This document shows positions 2,852-12,377 of a stretch of DNA of 25,671 nucleotides, one piece after another (within the stretch, counting starts at the first letter, position 1; each line of letters starts with the position of its first letter). The stretch covers positions 1 through 25,671 of IMG/VR virus record IMGVR_UViG_3300032086_000522; one strand, written 5' to 3'. The DNA is from a virus. A program made the translations under genes and the position numbers. A model generated the notes under the pieces. It had not been told where the DNA came from, did no database searches, and was given only the letters and a program-made list of their open reading frames with translations.

Positions 2852-3070
2852 TTAACTATTTGTTTCTTCTTCAGGTTCTGACTCTGTTTCATCGGCGGGC
2901 TTATTTGCCTCGATGAAGTCGGCGAGTCGACCTCGGAGAATACCAACATCCTTCAATTCGGCGCCTTCAAATGCGCCTCGTTTCGAACAGATGTCGATAA
3001 GTTTAACTACCATAATAAAATCACCTAATGTGATCTCTGGTTGTGCTTGTGTTTCTACTTCTTCACTCAT
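2852..3070 (-). CDS. Small acidic protein between gp45 and gp44 (unknown)
   Basis: A 72-aa protein of unknown function. It has an acidic, disordered-looking N-terminus (M-S-E-E-V-E), a compact predicted helical core around V-V-K-L-I-D-I-C-S-K-R-G-A-F-E-G-A-E-L, and an acidic tail rich in E. Proteins with this K-R-G-A-F core occur next to gp45 in other T4-like marine phages as far as I recall; no function is assigned. It has its own late promoter (6 nt before the ATG) and its own terminator (6 nt after the stop), so it can be made from a monocistronic, essentially leaderless late mRNA. Its position between clamp and clamp loader suggests a replication or late-transcription accessory, but this is inference. 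Confidence 0.75.
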   Translation of the reverse strand: MSEEVETQAQPEITLGDFIMVVKLIDICSKRGAFEGAELKDVGILRGRLADFIEANKPADETESEPEEETNS

Positions 3071-4197: not shown

Positions 4198-5406
4198 TTA
4201 AAACGGGGACGGTTCAGCTGATTCAGCTACCGTTTCCGTTGTATTTTCACTTCGATTAATAAGCTCTTCCATTGTTGGAGTTGACTCATCAATCTTCGTG
4301 TAAAGATCGATAAATGCAGTCTTCGTTTCGGAGTCGAATCGATTCGTGCAGAGTTCAATCGCCTTAGTGCGATCCTTAAAGATTGAAAAGGTCTTCACGA
4401 TGTGGCACAGTCGGCGAGTCGAAATCACATCGTCGATTGCTTCATCGGCGAAGGTCTTTCGAATAACTGTTGACCAGGCGATCAGCTTCTCAAGAAAGGT
4501 GTCATCGTTCACCTCGAACTTCTCAGCATGCTTCTTGAGAATGTTCATCTCAACCCGAGGGGCGGCATAAGGCTGATCGATCGTCGCCACGAATCGCTCG
4601 AGGAAAGCATCATCAATAATTGAAGCGGCAGAGTACCGACCATCTTCAGAGCCTCGACCATTGGTGTTGGCTGTGGCAATCACGTTGAATCCATCAGCGG
4701 GGACAACCATTTGACCAGTCTTTTTCAGAAGAACAGGCTTACCCTCAAGAATACCTTGGAGGCACATAATCTTATTGGTAGCACGGTCGATCTCGTCGAT
4801 CAGAAGAATTGCGCCATGTTCCATAGCCTTAATAACAGGCCCCTTTTGGAAAACGGTCTCACCGTTAATCAGTCGGAAACCGCCAATCAGATCGTCTTCG
4901 TCAGTTTCAGGTGAAATCTGTACCCGTACATATTCCCGTTTGGCCTTCGCACAGGCCTGTTCGACCATGAAGGTCTTTCCGTTACCTGACATACCAGAGA
5001 TGTAAAGTGGAAAGAAGTGCTTGGACATAATCACATCAAACACAGTCTTGTACTCACCCCACTTGACATAAGTCTTGTCAACGGTGGGAACATAAACCTC
5101 GTCATCAGTCACAGAGGAAACCGACATCGCATTATTGAATCGAGCAGGAGCAGGAGCTGGTGTCACTGCGACGGGAGCGACGACAGGAGTAGCTTCTCCC
5201 GTGATGTTTGGAAAGTGATATTTACCTCGAGTGTCTGTAGGTGTAAAGAGCTCACGAACCGTTCGGTAAACGAGCCCTTCACTATAACCGGCCGAGACGC
5301 CAGCTGCAATAATATCTTTCATACGAACCATCGTGCTCAAGGTCGGTTTACCGAGCTCGGAGTGAATGGTCGTGATTTGGTCGTTATTTAATAGTTTTTT
5401 AGCCAT
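4198..5406 (-). CDS. cobS: CobS/MoxR-like AAA+ ATPase
   Basis: A 402-aa AAA+ ATPase. Residues 1-66 form a small helical domain. A Pro/Ala-rich linker follows (about 72-90). The AAA+ core has Walker A GMSGNGKT (138-145), Walker B I-L-L-I-D-E-I-D (200-207), sensor A-T-A-N-T-N-G (244-250) and an F-L-E-R-F arginine-finger segment (269-272). The segment D-E-D-D-L-I-G-G-F is typical of CobS/MoxR proteins. In bacteria CobS drives cobalt insertion into cobalamin with CobN and CobT; MoxR ATPases work with VWA partners as remodelling machines. Here the VWA partner is the next gene upstream, and both share a promoter module. No CobN is present in the window, so a B12 role is unproven. Confidence 0.87.
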   Translation of the reverse strand: MAKKLLNNDQITTIHSELGKPTLSTMVRMKDIIAAGVSAGYSEGLVYRTVRELFTPTDTRGKYHFPNITGEATPVVAPVAVTPAPAPARFNNAMSVSSVTDDEVYVPTVDKTYVKWGEYKTVFDVIMSKHFFPLYISGMSGNGKTFMVEQACAKAKREYVRVQISPETDEDDLIGGFRLINGETVFQKGPVIKAMEHGAILLIDEIDRATNKIMCLQGILEGKPVLLKKTGQMVVPADGFNVIATANTNGRGSEDGRYSAASIIDDAFLERFVATIDQPYAAPRVEMNILKKHAEKFEVNDDTFLEKLIAWSTVIRKTFADEAIDDVISTRRLCHIVKTFSIFKDRTKAIELCTNRFDSETKTAFIDLYTKIDESTPTMEELINRSENTTETVAESAEPSPF

Positions 5407-5437: not shown

Positions 5438-5466
5438 ATTATACCATAAATTACTGAATCTGTAAA
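5438..5466 (-). promoter_or_regulatory. Early promoter, module copy A (cobS-like gene)
   Basis: TTTACA at 5466-5461, 17-nt spacer, TATAAT at 5443-5438. The downstream bases ATTATTATAAGATTGAGA are shared with copy B. TATAAT-ATT-ATTATA forms a dyad over the -10 box. The 18-bp element at 5480-5497 lies exactly 13 bp upstream of the -35 box, as in copies B and C. Leader about 25 nt. Confidence 0.82.
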
Positions 5467-5479
5467 CCGTTTTATCTTA

Positions 5480-5497
5480 TTGAATACCAATAACTTA
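5480..5497 (-). repeat. 18-bp upstream element, copy A
   Basis: Promoter-sense reading TAAGTTATTGGTATTCAA. It shares TAAG-N4-TTG-N5-CAA with copies B and C (N4 = any spacing bases). It would occupy roughly -66 to -49, a position suited to an activator or repressor site. Confidence 0.7.
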
Positions 5498-5529
5498 TGA
5501 AAGTATTTTTGTTTTCTTTGAAAAAGTCG

Positions 5530-5547
5530 TAAGTCATTAGTATTCAA
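5530..5547 (+). repeat. 18-bp element, distal copy A' (inverted)
   Basis: TAAGTCATTAGTATTCAA on the plus strand, i.e. inverted relative to copy A and separated from it by 32 bp. It lies 4 nt past the stop codon of the CobT-like gene. Confidence 0.6.
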
Positions 5548-5551
5548 AGGA

Positions 5552-7714
5552 TTAGGCAACCTTGGTAGCAATCTTGGTCATCAGAACTCGAGTCTTCTTA
5601 TTTCCAGCATGGTGAGCCGAGAATTGTTTCGCCAACTTTGTTTGGGCTCGCTTGGACGATGCGATGTCCTCGTTAATATCTTTCGTGTTGAAGTCTTCGT
5701 CATCAATAGAAACATCATTCAGCAGGAAGTAGGAGTCATAGCCCTTTATGTTTCCACCTTCGATGTGTCCGTCTTTCTTCAGTGTCTTTTTCAACTTAGC
5801 CTGATCTCGGCCGAAGTTGTAGAGTTCCCGGTTCACTTCTCGTTTGCTAGTGGCGAGGTAAAACCCGATCGTGGTAACAGTTGGAATCTCACCCATTACT
5901 TTAATCAGCTCGGAAGTGGCACCGTAATTATTAATCTCGTGAACAGCATTACCAAATTTGAATCGAGTCTTTGAAGCCCATGAGTCATATTCACCAGGCT
6001 CACGGAAGGAAACTCGACTTGAATCACCATCTGTAAGAGTCACAAACATTGTCTTTTGAGTCTTATTCTTAGCGATAAAATCTTTAACAACTGTGAACAT
6101 CGCGGTGAGTGTGCTATCCAGTGGAGTTCCACCAAGAGATTCATAAGGAGCTGAAACCAAGTGGCGACTTCCACCAAGAGCAACCTGTAGCCACATGTTA
6201 TCCGAAGCTTTCTTAAAGTCACTCTTAGACATCTCACTTGAGAGATGGTGAAGAATCAAAGTGTCTTTCAGGTCGACTTCATTCGGCGCAGGAGAATAAT
6301 CATTCTTGTCAATTCCGTGGCGCCATACCGATGTGAATGAATAAACATCGTAGGGAATTCCGACCATTCGGCAAAATTCAACCAGATTCAAAGTCTGTTC
6401 GATCACATCACTCATCACTCCACCCATAGAGCCAGAGTAATCCAGTAGGAAAACCATGCCGTGGGACTTTGCGTTAGCTAGAACTGACTTGCTCAAGAAA
6501 ATCTCATCTGTGATCTTGTAAGAGTGAAGCTTGTTCACATCAATCACACCAGTCCGAGCTTCGGTTGAGCGAGAGTATTGATAAGCCGCTTTGCGACGTT
6601 CGAATTCACGAGCTAGAACTGCGGCTTTCTTCTTAGTCTTTTTTCTAAGTTCTTCTGCCTTGTTTTTATACTCGGGGTACCATTCATTCGCAGAGGCGAC
6701 TGCTTCAGTTTTTTCACGGTCGACAATCAATGTCTTATAGTCACAAATGTTCTTATAAACTGATTCCCGTCGAGGTAGAATCATCGTGTTATACCCAAGT
6801 TCTTTAGATGTTTGAACTTCTTCTTCAAGAGAGCGATCAAAGTTTTCTTGAGTTTCAGAAACGAGTTCTTTATTAATCTCTTCGGCACTCTCACCGTCAG
6901 CGACGGTTTCATCACCTTCGGCTTCCTCAGCGCCTTCATCAGATTCAATGTCAGAAGAGCTTGCCTCAGCATCGTTGTCGAAGTTCTCTTCGTCTTCTTC
7001 AGACTTCTCAGCCTCGGCTTCAGTACCGTCGTCACTCTCGGATTCATCACCAGAGTCATTCTCGTCACCAGAGTCATTCTCATCACTCGTGTCATCGGAA
7101 CCCTCGTCGGTTGAAGTTTCTTCATTGTCCTCGTCAGAGTCATTGTTCTCTGGCTCAGGCTCTTTCTTCATTTTCTCAGCAATCTCAGCACAGACCTCTA
7201 AAACATCTTCAAAGGTTTCAGCATCGACACACTTTTTGAAAATCACTTCCTCTTCATCAGAGAGTGGAATGTCGGAAATCGTACCAATCTTACCTCGGAG
7301 GTTGAGACGGTCAATAAACTTCATCTTGTTGACATCCTTGTCACCGATGCCGAAGAAGTCAGCCTCGACCAATTCATTGTAAGCCTCTTTAAAGAGTCGA
7401 GGCAAACCAGGATAAGTCGACTGAATCAGTCGTTCGATTCGAATGTCCTCAACGATGTTGCAGACATCAAAGGGTGTGCCAGGGCACTTCTCATTAAATT
7501 TTTCAACTGCATCAGCTGGAGTATAAAGAGCATGTCCGACTTCGTGTCCGATCAGCATATCCATAACTGAGATGCCGCGGTCTTTCCACTTGGGAAGGGC
7601 CAGCGTCCGATTCTTTATGTCAAAGTAAGCGGTCGACTTTGCGGTCGATGTCACATTGATATTCTCTTTAGCGAGAAGTCGGGCTAGGGTGGATTTAGTC
7701 TCAGTAATTTTCAT
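5552..7714 (-). CDS. cobT: HExxH metallopeptidase-VWA protein (CobT-like)
   Basis: A 720-aa protein with two domains. The N-terminal domain has a zinc-peptidase HEVGH (57-61) and a later N-I-V-E-D-I-R-I-E (86-94), placed where a third metal ligand is expected. An acidic, low-complexity linker spans about 183-290. A Lys/Glu-rich helical stretch follows, then a C-terminal VWA domain with a complete MIDAS: D425-Y-S427-G-S429, T530 in L-G-G-T-P-L, and D562 in L-T-D-G-D. VWA plus acidic linker is the layout of cobaltochelatase CobT, and marine phage homologues are annotated so. To my knowledge bacterial CobT lacks HExxH, so a peptidase-type chaperone partner of the adjacent AAA+ ATPase is at least as likely. 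The gene has its own copy of the shared promoter module. Its base composition in the linker is repetitive (GA-rich). Confidence 0.85.
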   Translation of the reverse strand: MKITETKSTLARLLAKENINVTSTAKSTAYFDIKNRTLALPKWKDRGISVMDMLIGHEVGHALYTPADAVEKFNEKCPGTPFDVCNIVEDIRIERLIQSTYPGLPRLFKEAYNELVEADFFGIGDKDVNKMKFIDRLNLRGKIGTISDIPLSDEEEVIFKKCVDAETFEDVLEVCAEIAEKMKKEPEPENNDSDEDNEETSTDEGSDDTSDENDSGDENDSGDESESDDGTEAEAEKSEEDEENFDNDAEASSSDIESDEGAEEAEGDETVADGESAEEINKELVSETQENFDRSLEEEVQTSKELGYNTMILPRRESVYKNICDYKTLIVDREKTEAVASANEWYPEYKNKAEELRKKTKKKAAVLAREFERRKAAYQYSRSTEARTGVIDVNKLHSYKITDEIFLSKSVLANAKSHGMVFLLDYSGSMGGVMSDVIEQTLNLVEFCRMVGIPYDVYSFTSVWRHGIDKNDYSPAPNEVDLKDTLILHHLSSEMSKSDFKKASDNMWLQVALGGSRHLVSAPYESLGGTPLDSTLTAMFTVVKDFIAKNKTQKTMFVTLTDGDSSRVSFREPGEYDSWASKTRFKFGNAVHEINNYGATSELIKVMGEIPTVTTIGFYLATSKREVNRELYNFGRDQAKLKKTLKKDGHIEGGNIKGYDSYFLLNDVSIDDEDFNTKDINEDIASSKRAQTKLAKQFSAHHAGNKKTRVLMTKIATKVA

Positions 7715-7739
7715 TGGTCAATCTCAATCTTATAATAAT

Positions 7740-7768
7740 ATTATAATCTATTTGGTCGATTTTGTAAA
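7740..7768 (-). promoter_or_regulatory. Early promoter, module copy B (CobT-like gene)
   Basis: TTTACA at 7768-7763, 17-nt spacer, TATAAT at 7745-7740, followed by ATTATTATAAGATTGAGA as in copy A. The 18-bp element at 7782-7799 is exactly 13 bp upstream of the -35 box. The ATG is at 7714. Confidence 0.82.
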
Positions 7769-7781
7769 GATATTCATCTCG

Positions 7782-7799
7782 TTGATAGTCAAGGGCTTA
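7782..7799 (-). repeat. 18-bp upstream element, copy B
   Basis: Promoter-sense reading TAAGCCCTTGACTATCAA. The TTGA-CTA-TCAA core is a perfect small dyad. The next bases, CGAGAT, are shared with copy C. Confidence 0.7.
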
Positions 7800-7832
7800 G
7801 GAAATCTGTTATTGGTGTTGTATTTAATTTCG

Positions 7833-7849
7833 TAAGTCATTGATTAAAA
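7833..7849 (+). repeat. 18-bp element, distal copy B' (degenerate, inverted)
   Basis: TAAGTCATTGATTAAAA on the plus strand. It matches A' and C' over TAAGTCATT and overlaps the stop codon of the GIY-YIG gene (7846-7844). It is the weakest of the six copies. Confidence 0.45.
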
Positions 7850-8152
7850 GTCGTTTAGAGTAGGGGCTAATTCAGCAATCAGCTCTCGTTCGCGAGAATA
7901 AGCGGCTTTCCGCCCTCTCACGACCTCCAGAACCTCGTAGTAAATGGTTTCATCGGTCTCACGAAGGAACTTACACATTGTCCAGTCCTTATTCTCATTC
8001 ATGGCACGAGAGATGTGCTGATTCACCCGTGTTTTAACTGATCTATAAAATGCGCGGCCTCGAGCAACGGTCAATCCGATGTATGTTTCATCACCTCCGC
8101 TCACACGGTAGAGAACATAGTTTCGGTCGTTTCTTCTTTTTCTATTAGCCAT
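7844..8152 (-). CDS. Small GIY-YIG domain protein
   Basis: A 102-aa protein consisting of little more than one GIY-YIG nuclease domain. It has a basic start (N-R-K-R-R-N-D-R), the two signature strands V-L-Y (13-15) and T-Y-I-G (23-26), R and H residues in R-V-N-Q-H-I, the R-E-R-E-L-I-A-E-L helix that carries the catalytic glutamate, and P-T-L-N near the C-terminus. No extra DNA-binding domain is visible, unlike T4 Seg homing enzymes of about 200 aa. The ATG at 8152 is preferred; a TTG two codons earlier has no support. It has its own early promoter module (copy C). It may be a solitary homing-type nuclease, a repair enzyme, or a protein attacking host DNA. Confidence 0.75.
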   Translation of the reverse strand: MANRKRRNDRNYVLYRVSGGDETYIGLTVARGRAFYRSVKTRVNQHISRAMNENKDWTMCKFLRETDETIYYEVLEVVRGRKAAYSRERELIAELAPTLNDF

Positions 8153-8170
8153 AACCAATCTTATACTAAT

Positions 8171-8199
8171 ATTGTATCATAGCTACCTCGATTTGTACA
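8171..8199 (-). promoter_or_regulatory. Early promoter, module copy C (GIY-YIG gene)
   Basis: TGTACA at 8199-8194, 17-nt spacer, TACAAT at 8176-8171, then ATTAGTATAAGATTG, a diverged version of copies A and B. The 18-bp element at 8213-8230 is again 13 bp upstream of the -35 box. Confidence 0.75.
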
Positions 8200-8212
8200 C
8201 TGTTATATCTCG

Positions 8213-8230
8213 TTGACTACCAACGGCTTA
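8213..8230 (-). repeat. 18-bp upstream element, copy C
   Basis: Promoter-sense reading TAAGCCGTTGGTAGTCAA, followed by CGAGAT as in copy B. Confidence 0.7.
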
Positions 8231-8270
8231 TATAACGCGGGAGCAATCTTAGAAAAAAAGATACAACCTG

Positions 8271-8288
8271 TTGAGTATCAATGACTTA
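8271..8288 (-). repeat. 18-bp element, distal copy C'
   Basis: Minus-strand reading TAAGTCATTGATACTCAA, in the same orientation as copy C and 40 bp from it. It overlaps the stop codon (8288-8286) of the 69-aa gene. Confidence 0.6.
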
Positions 8289-8495
8289 CAACTTCGATCG
8301 AATCTTATCCAATTCTTTGATTATTTGAGAATAGTTCTCATTAAATCTTATCTTAACTCCATACGTGTCATAGAATTGAGGTATCAGCGCATTCTTGAAA
8401 TATGCATCAAATAGAGTTCTAGCACTTGAATCATCTGACTTATCCAACATCGACTCTACAAGGTATCGAGTATTATTGAATACATCGTACTTCAT
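8286..8495 (-). CDS. Small protein coupled to gp46 (unknown)
   Basis: A 69-aa protein that I do not recognise. It looks mostly helical, starting M-K-Y-D-V-F-N-N-T-R-Y-L-V-E and ending in a charged helix with L-D-K-I-R-S-K-L. There is no signal peptide, membrane segment or metal motif. Its ATG overlaps the gp46 stop as TAATG, so it is translated as the last cistron of the gp55-47-46 operon. That makes a role near recombination or replication plausible but unproven. Its stop codon lies inside repeat C'. Confidence 0.7.
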   Translation of the reverse strand: MKYDVFNNTRYLVESMLDKSDDSSARTLFDAYFKNALIPQFYDTYGVKIRFNENYSQIIKELDKIRSKL

Positions 8496-11843: not shown

Positions 11844-11871
11844 ATAATATACATCGTATTTAATATGTCAA
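11844..11871 (-). promoter_or_regulatory. Sigma70-type early promoter of gp55 operon
   Basis: TTGACA at 11871-11866, 16-nt spacer, TATTAT at 11849-11844; the ATG is at 11835. The predicted leader is only 1-3 nt. It is divergent from the plus-strand promoter at 11887-11915, with the two -35 boxes 15 bp apart. Confidence 0.65.
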
Positions 11872-11886
11872 TACCTTATTTGGGGT

Positions 11887-11915
11887 TTGACATCAAGTTG
11901 ACTTCTCTTTATAAT
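11887..11915 (+). promoter_or_regulatory. Perfect-consensus sigma70 promoter on the plus strand
   Basis: TTGACA (11887-11892), exactly 17 nt, TATAAT (11910-11915), all consensus. It reads against the 145-aa gene and uvsW. A dyad TTGATT-TG-AATCAA at 11915-11928 is centred on the predicted start site. No convincing plus-strand ORF follows, so the product would be an antisense RNA. Confidence 0.6.
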
Positions 11916-11939: not shown

Positions 11940-12377
11940 CTAATTATTCCCAGGTTTCCAATCCCATCTTTTGATATGTTCATTAAAACCTTGTTTGTCA
12001 AAAGCATCAAAGAAAGATTCATCTAAATTGTCCATCTCTAATAAGGATAGCATTGCATCATCTCGTTCATCCTGTCTTTGTTTATTAAGAAGAATGTATT
12101 TGAAGTAATGTGCTTTTAATTCGAATAATGCCTCCGAACGACTAACTATATTGTCAGCATTCAATTCGGTTAGATCATGTAGAGAAGAGAGATTCCATTC
12201 AACGATATGATATCCTTCTTCTGTATAGACTATCTGTGCGGGAAGAGTTACAAATATTGTATTACTGTATTCTGTCGATTCTTCGATGTCCACTTCTTCC
12301 GCAACGATGTAACTACCATCTGTGAGACGATAGGTGTAGATGTCTGCATCCAGTATTTTTTCAATCATATTAATCAT
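11940..12377 (-). CDS. Protein of unknown function, possible Lsm-like domain
   Basis: A 145-aa protein lying between uvsW and gp55. Residues about 13-60 read as a small beta-barrel: Y-T-Y-R-L-T-D-G-S-Y-I-V-A-E-E, then I-F-V-T-L-P-A-Q-I-V-Y, then G-Y-H-I-V-E-W. That strand order resembles Sm/Lsm-type proteins in T4-like marine phages, but the match is by eye only. The C-terminal half is helical and acidic, ending with K-R-W-D-W-K-P-G-N-N. The ATG at 12377 overlaps the uvsW stop as ATGA, implying translational coupling; a second ATG at 12368 is possible. A plus-strand promoter just past its 3' end would produce RNA antisense to it. Confidence 0.75.
   Translation of the reverse strand: MINMIEKILDADIYTYRLTDGSYIVAEEVDIEESTEYSNTIFVTLPAQIVYTEEGYHIVEWNLSSLHDLTELNADNIVSRSEALFELKAHYFKYILLNKQRQDERDDAMLSLLEMDNLDESFFDAFDKQGFNEHIKRWDWKPGNN

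Follow-up and report, generated by a model that had tools for sequence, protein, structure and literature searches.

The DNA analyzed here (the window) comprises the 25,671 bases of virus record IMGVR_UViG_3300032086_000522 (positions 1 to 25,671) and is a fragment of an uncultivated marine T4-like (Kyanoviridae-type) phage. The minus strand carries T4-like genes encoding RegA, gp44, the sliding clamp, a dGTP diphosphohydrolase, a CobS-like AAA+ ATPase, a peptidase, gp46, gp47, the late sigma factor gp55 and capsid and tail proteins. The major capsid protein was found to be 59% identical to its counterparts in OM43 and Pelagibacter myophages. Three genes on this strand, encoding the CobS-like ATPase, the peptidase and a small GIY-YIG-like protein, are each preceded by the same promoter module, in which an early promoter of the T4 type is combined with an upstream element that resembles a binding site for IHF (integration host factor).

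The module consists of an 18-bp element, TAAG-N3-TTG-N5-CAA, followed by 13 bp, the sequence TNTACA, 17 bp and the sequence TANAAT. Three copies are located on the minus strand, at 5438-5497 (M1), 7740-7799 (M2) and 8171-8230 (M3). A preliminary description of this DNA had placed them correctly, and both spacings are exact. It had, however, written the element with N4, which would make 19 bp and has no match in the window. The boxes read TTTACA and TATAAT in M1 and M2 and TGTACA and TACAAT in M3, and the -10 box is followed by ATTATTATAAGATTG in M1 and M2 and by the variant ATTAGTATAAGATTG in M3. A scan with the 60-bp composite, allowing up to three mismatches, returned three matches in the window, each with no mismatch, compared to a mean of 0.01 in shuffled sequences. 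This bears out the earlier claim that no other gene in the window has the module. The three copies are identical to each other at 35-42 of 60 positions, and a recent duplication is therefore not their origin. A fourth exact copy of the 18-mer, at 8271-8288 on the minus strand, has no promoter of its own. With strong sigma-70 boxes at -35 and -10 separated by 17 bp, the promoter half resembles the early promoters of T4, and immediate-early activity is predicted for it.

The IHF consensus sequence is WATCAANNNNTTR (PMC8942017; PMC8421141). In Table 2 of PMC6907758 the H-NS and IHF motifs are apparently swapped, with WATCAANNNNTTR printed under H-NS. The promoter-proximal element of M1, read in the IHF orientation, is the plus strand 13-mer TACCAATAACTTA at 5485-5497, and its 13-bp spacer holds an AT tract, GATAAA, at the left side of the IHF-type core. 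In all three cassettes we also identified a second, inverted copy of the 18-mer, 32-33 bp beyond the proximal site, which the preliminary description did not contain; it had not considered the resemblance to IHF sites either. The match is weak in M1, and the M1-type partner in the closest relative (L177) differs from the IHF consensus sequence by one nucleotide. In M3 the inverted partner (8264-8281, 33 bp from the proximal site) has one mismatch to the consensus and overlaps the promoterless fourth 18-mer, so that a double site is formed; this contains an exact IHF consensus sequence at 8276-8288 on the plus strand and overlaps the stop codon of the open reading frame (ORF) 8286-8495.

Table 1. 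Positions of the module parts and of the genes that they precede (IHF-type sites and promoters are predicted).
Feature	Position	Strand	Remarks
M1 promoter-proximal IHF-type site (TAAGTTATTGGTATTCAA)	5480..5497	-	One mismatch to WATCAANNNNTTR
M1 early promoter TTTACA-N17-TATAAT (AAA+/CobS gene)	5438..5466	-	Predicted start ~5431
M1 inverted partner	5530..5547	+	32 bp upstream; arms 86% complementary; two mismatches to the IHF consensus
M2 promoter-proximal IHF-type site (TAAGCCCTTGACTATCAA)	7782..7799	-	One mismatch to WATCAANNNNTTR
M2 early promoter TTTACA-N17-TATAAT (peptidase/VWA gene)	7740..7768	-	Predicted start ~7733
M2 inverted partner	7833..7850	+	33 bp upstream; exact IHF consensus AATCAATGACTTA at 7833-7845, minus strand
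M3 promoter-proximal IHF-type site (TAAGCCGTTGGTAGTCAA)	8213..8230	-	One mismatch to WATCAANNNNTTR
M3 early promoter TGTACA-N17-TACAAT (GIY-YIG-like gene)	8171..8199	-	Predicted start ~8164
M3 upstream double site TAAGTCATTGATACTCAACAGGTTG (minus strand)	8264..8288		TTG-N5-CAA-N4-TTR in both orientations
AAA+ ATPase, CobS-like ("porphyrin biosynthesis" of cyanophages)	4198..5406	-	AAA_5; phrog_249, E=3e-104
Phage peptidase with HEVGH and VWA-like motifs	5552..7714	-	phrog_459, E=3.7e-159; CobS-adjoining core gene of marine T4-like phages
GIY-YIG-like small ORF	7844..8152	-	102 aa, ATG at 8152; Pfam GIY-YIG E=0.008, under the curated cut-off

An exact scan for the module in 2.9 million viral contigs returned 28 loci. 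The contigs are related, so this count and those that follow are not independent and are inflated. When the gap between the element and the -35 box was left free (0-30 bp), it was 13 bp in 24 of 52 distinct sequences and 23 bp in six, while each remaining gap length was found in one to five sequences, several of them clusters of near-identical ones. The 23-bp sequences form a minor class, one helical turn beyond 13 bp. Examples are L118, L155, L136, L158 and L115, and some of this class are near-full palindromes, YAA-N4-TTG-N5-CAA-N4-TTR. With mismatches allowed, up to five modules were found on a single contig, and a reversed control pattern gave one match in 30 records. The preferred distances of the upstream copy in the relatives were 32 and 14 bp. 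This copy, which was not selected for in the scans, contained an exact WATCAANNNNTTR in 30 of 88 modules, compared to 0.5% of shuffled sequences.

Two relaxed scans were carried out, each of which left a different part of the motif free. With TTG-N5-CAA and the promoter fixed (50 distinct cassettes), TAA was found seven bases upstream in 28 cassettes, and TA or CAA stood at the YAA position in 31. The nucleotides after TTG were dA in 34 and dT in 28 cassettes, followed by W in 43, so that most read TTGAT[AT]. With TAA-N4-TTG fixed, a second T4-like family was retrieved (family 2), the polymerase of which is 57% identical to that of phage C48C1. Its element, at the same position, lacks CAA and reads TAAG-N3-TTGATT with AAAATAAAT after it, and the distance to the inverted copy is 14 bp. 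Five members (L212, L213, L221, L257 and L303) carry conserved direct repeats, TTACAATTTRTTACAATTT, immediately upstream of the inverted IHF-type pair.

The common denominator of family 2 and of family 1, which has the TTG/CAA dyad, is YAA-N4-TTGATW, flanked by an A/T tract towards the promoter. On the opposite strand this reads WATCAA-N4-TTR with an A/T tract to the left, which is the IHF consensus, and the positions that the scans did not fix yield YAANNNNTTGATW, the reverse complement of WATCAANNNNTTR. In the proximal copy, A/T made up 77-100% at the six positions from -9 to -4 before the -35 box, and in family 2 the tract to the left of the core is AAAATAAAT. The logos of the two copies agree, with the IHF core, an AT-rich left side and a TTG ahead of the core. 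At the level of the families the element thus has the composition of a candidate IHF site, WATCA[A/R]NNNNTTR with a left A/T tract. IHF wraps about 35 bp of DNA in a bend of about 160 degrees, with two kinks, 9 bp apart, into which two prolines are inserted (PMC8421141). The same distance separates the TT and AA steps of TTG-N5-CAA, which is compatible with this geometry, and we infer that they would be the intercalation steps. In lambda, the sequence of the attP H' site is likewise built as TTG-N5-CAA-N4-TTR, with an A tract on the left. Three of these observations, on the upstream copy, on the logos and on H', do not depend on the motif by which the modules were selected. H' serves integration, whereas the module has its site in phase with an early promoter, in most cases together with an inverted copy 32 (or 14) bp away, and IHF binding is a prediction here. 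A likeness to an FNR site was rejected: such a site is TTGAT-N4-ATCAA and the element has TTGAT-N-ATCAA, so that the spacing does not fit.

To assess the gene specificity of the site we used 80 loci that were collected by CobS homology only, without use of the motif, and counted non-redundant promoters. Promoters of the trio (GIY-YIG-like, peptidase and CobS genes) had the site in 33 of 79 cases, compared to one of 96 for the gp44, gp45, gp46, gp47, gp55 and dGTPase genes. The match to the consensus peaked 18 bp before the -35 box in 30 trio promoters and in none of the core genes, and permuted consensus controls were flat. The GIY-YIG-like gene had the site in all 13 testable CobS loci, the gene itself being present in only 14 of the 80. 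These numbers agree with the earlier proposal that a regulator is bound at about -66 to -49, in fixed phasing, to an element that is common to the three genes and absent from their neighbors. They support a class of early promoters which carries the site and appears distinct from the promoters of the replication genes. The earlier interpretation, a regulon shared by the three genes, is partly supported, but the module is not exclusive to the trio. Among the modules of relatives that are followed by an ORF, 50 of 75 precede other, mostly small unknown genes, and on one 20-kb contig two such modules were found together with a trio. The trio region is over-represented both in the module set and in the 80 CobS loci, and the true share of other genes is therefore probably higher than 50/75. 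The 13-bp spacing, which the preliminary description had singled out for a search of relatives, recurs there, though not only before the three genes.

These observations are probably best explained by an IHF-assisted class of early promoters, in which a T4-type early promoter is joined to a site for host IHF or a close DNABII relative. The protein would bind at about -66 to -49 (centered near -55) and at the inverted site 32-33 bp further upstream, with the TTR end distal and the arm on the AT tract beside the -35 box. By bending the DNA sharply it would fold the upstream DNA back onto RNA polymerase, and this may stimulate early transcription of the trio and, in relatives, of many small accessory genes. 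The promoters of core replication genes lack the site. Besides Mu Pe, lambda pL is another phage early promoter that is stimulated by IHF. Both are single promoters, whereas in the T4-like phages analyzed here a whole class has the site in a fixed place near -55, often accompanied by an inverted second one. In phage Mu, deletion of the IHF site lowers the activity of Pe, an early lytic promoter boosted by a host architectural protein bound upstream, which resembles the role proposed for the module (PMC3820752).

Several observations weigh against this explanation. The proximal sites of the window each deviate from the IHF consensus sequence by one nucleotide, and the M1 partner deviates by two. 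The host of the phage may not possess IHF, and binding is predicted from the motif. All contigs that contributed to the counts are metagenomic as well as related. Twelve records of other, isolated phages, eight of them tested with the strict pattern and all with the relaxed one (among them HTVC008M, Mosig, Melnitz-3, C48C1, S-PM2, P-TIM40, DLP_6, XG4, RB49 and T4), contained no module beyond three-mismatch noise, and T4 and RB49 infect E. coli, a host with IHF. Finally, the element exceeds what IHF needs: the TTG/CAA dyad, a G or C at position 4 and Y-R-R-S within N4 are conserved as well. This extra conservation leaves room for a more specific protein.

It is accordingly conceivable, although rather unlikely, that another host or phage regulator binds the TTG-N5-CAA dyad with its TAAG extension and that the likeness to IHF sites is fortuitous. 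In family 1 the dyad and TAA[GC] are constrained beyond the IHF consensus, and some sites (8264-8288 in the window; L118 and L155) approach full palindromes of the form given above. However, family 2 drops CAA and retains YAA-N4-TTGATW and the AT tract, and the dyad is itself part of the lambda H' IHF site. An immediate-early promoter would also require a factor that pre-exists in the cell or is injected. The composite was not above chance level in any of 84,980 bacterial and archaeal genomes scanned (four matches, all Bacteroidetes-group), by which a host origin of the module was rejected as well.

Promoter-early stem-loops (PeSLs) were reportedly treated by Arbiol 2010 and Comeau 2014, and RB49 is said to be the phage in which they were described. 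If the module were a cassette of this type, its inverted arms would pair in the RNA as a stem-loop at which transcription from upstream stops, followed by the early promoter of the next gene. We consider this quite unlikely. PeSLs of T4-like phages resemble the module in having an early promoter and an inverted repeat between accessory genes in several copies per genome, and the module was found in several copies per genome before accessory genes; promoter and stem-loop in this location also correspond to the description of PeSLs that is cited in PMC4503421. A PeSL cassette would also mediate recombination and shuffling of genes between cassettes; the GIY-YIG-like gene, as stated above, is present in a minority of the CobS loci. 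Folding of the RNA was better than that of shuffled sequences for M1 (z = -4.3, 18-bp stem) and weakly so for M2 (z = -2.6), but not for M3 (z = -0.7). In a shuffle test that ignores relatedness, the arms of family 2 co-vary at four variable positions (P=0.003, nine related cassettes), whereas four variable positions in the arms of 26 family 1 cassettes do not (P=0.22-0.49). A U tract past the 3' arm was not found, and a terminator scan returned none in the cassettes; only M3 has a weak hairpin with U7, inside the loop. RB49 promoters have the classical PeSL arrangement of GC-rich hairpins and T runs immediately before the -35 box, which are not found in the module cassettes. Instead of GC-rich intrinsic terminators these have arms that are AT-rich copies of one protein-type site. 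The loop has a fixed length, 32-33 nt or 14 nt, and in many modules of relatives the upstream arm is missing altogether. Compared to a terminator, paired protein sites better account for the constant distance of 32-33 bp, the single-site cassettes and the class one helical turn away. Based on folding, co-variation and the comparison with RB49, an RNA hairpin or PeSL terminator was therefore rejected as the main explanation, even though the family 2 arms do co-vary.

That the module is a generic early promoter of which copies spread through the genome, with the 18-mer as a functionless hitchhiking relic, would suit its presence before many unrelated small genes (50/75) and its multiple copies on single contigs, but is very unlikely, since the 18-mer and its spacing were kept while other bases of the cassette diverged (35-42 of 60 positions identical in the window), core-gene promoters of the same loci have no site, and the upstream copy is independently conserved.

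T4 early promoters share TTTACA and TATAAT, the 17-bp spacing and an AT-rich upstream region with the module. The promoter part was found to be 79-81% identical over 47 nt to intergenic DNA of T4 and its relatives (E ~0.1), and a BLAST search of 50,697 phage records with two cassettes gave partial matches only, such as this part in T4-type phages. Unlike the module, the T4 and RB49 promoters have no IHF-type site. A targeted literature search, from the reach of which most subscription papers were excluded, found no report of IHF sites at T4-like early promoters. In T4, strong early transcription is obtained through UP elements and Alt (PMC2988021).

Under the IHF-assisted reading, these promoters may, tentatively, constitute a distinct class in uncultivated marine T4-like phages. 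Their IHF sites, two in inverted and phased arrangement, would let a host nucleoid protein wrap the DNA upstream of the promoter onto RNA polymerase, and one early regulon, made up of CobS/peptidase, GIY-YIG-like and small accessory genes, would thereby be marked off from the replication genes. If true, these phages would have an alternative to the scheme known from T4 (UP elements, Alt and MotA). In marine hosts other than cyanobacteria, the takeover of transcription by the abundant T4-like phages is hardly known, most of these phages being available from metagenomes only, and a promoter class with a host-factor site that can be read from the sequence offers a concrete and testable entry. The class would predict the host protein needed, the genes expressed first and hosts that carry IHF, and could thus aid host prediction from sequence; we know of no IHF in cyanobacteria. 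The widespread and functionally obscure phage CobS/peptidase pair would be singled out as members of an early accessory regulon.

Cyanophage S-PM2 also has this pair, and the window shares its gene order gp46, peptidase, CobS. Compared to S-PM2, the window has the additional 102-aa GIY-YIG-like ORF between gp46 and the peptidase, and an early promoter of its own for each of the three genes.

In some relatives (L055:10873, L056:5512 and L069:9409) the gp44, gp45 and some other promoters have an ATG about 5-8 nt past TATAAT, which suggests leaderless messages. In the window, a terminator-like hairpin of 12 bp with a weak T tail (TTTCTCTT) is located at 2818-2845 on the minus strand, between ORF 2852-3070 and gp44. 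The 104-bp gap beside gp55 (11844-11915) contains two promoters back to back. On the minus strand TTGACA-N16-TATTAT (11871-11844) is directed at gp55, and on the plus strand a perfect TTGACA-N17-TATAAT (11887-11915) points antisense into ORF 11940-12377, from which an antisense transcript is possible.

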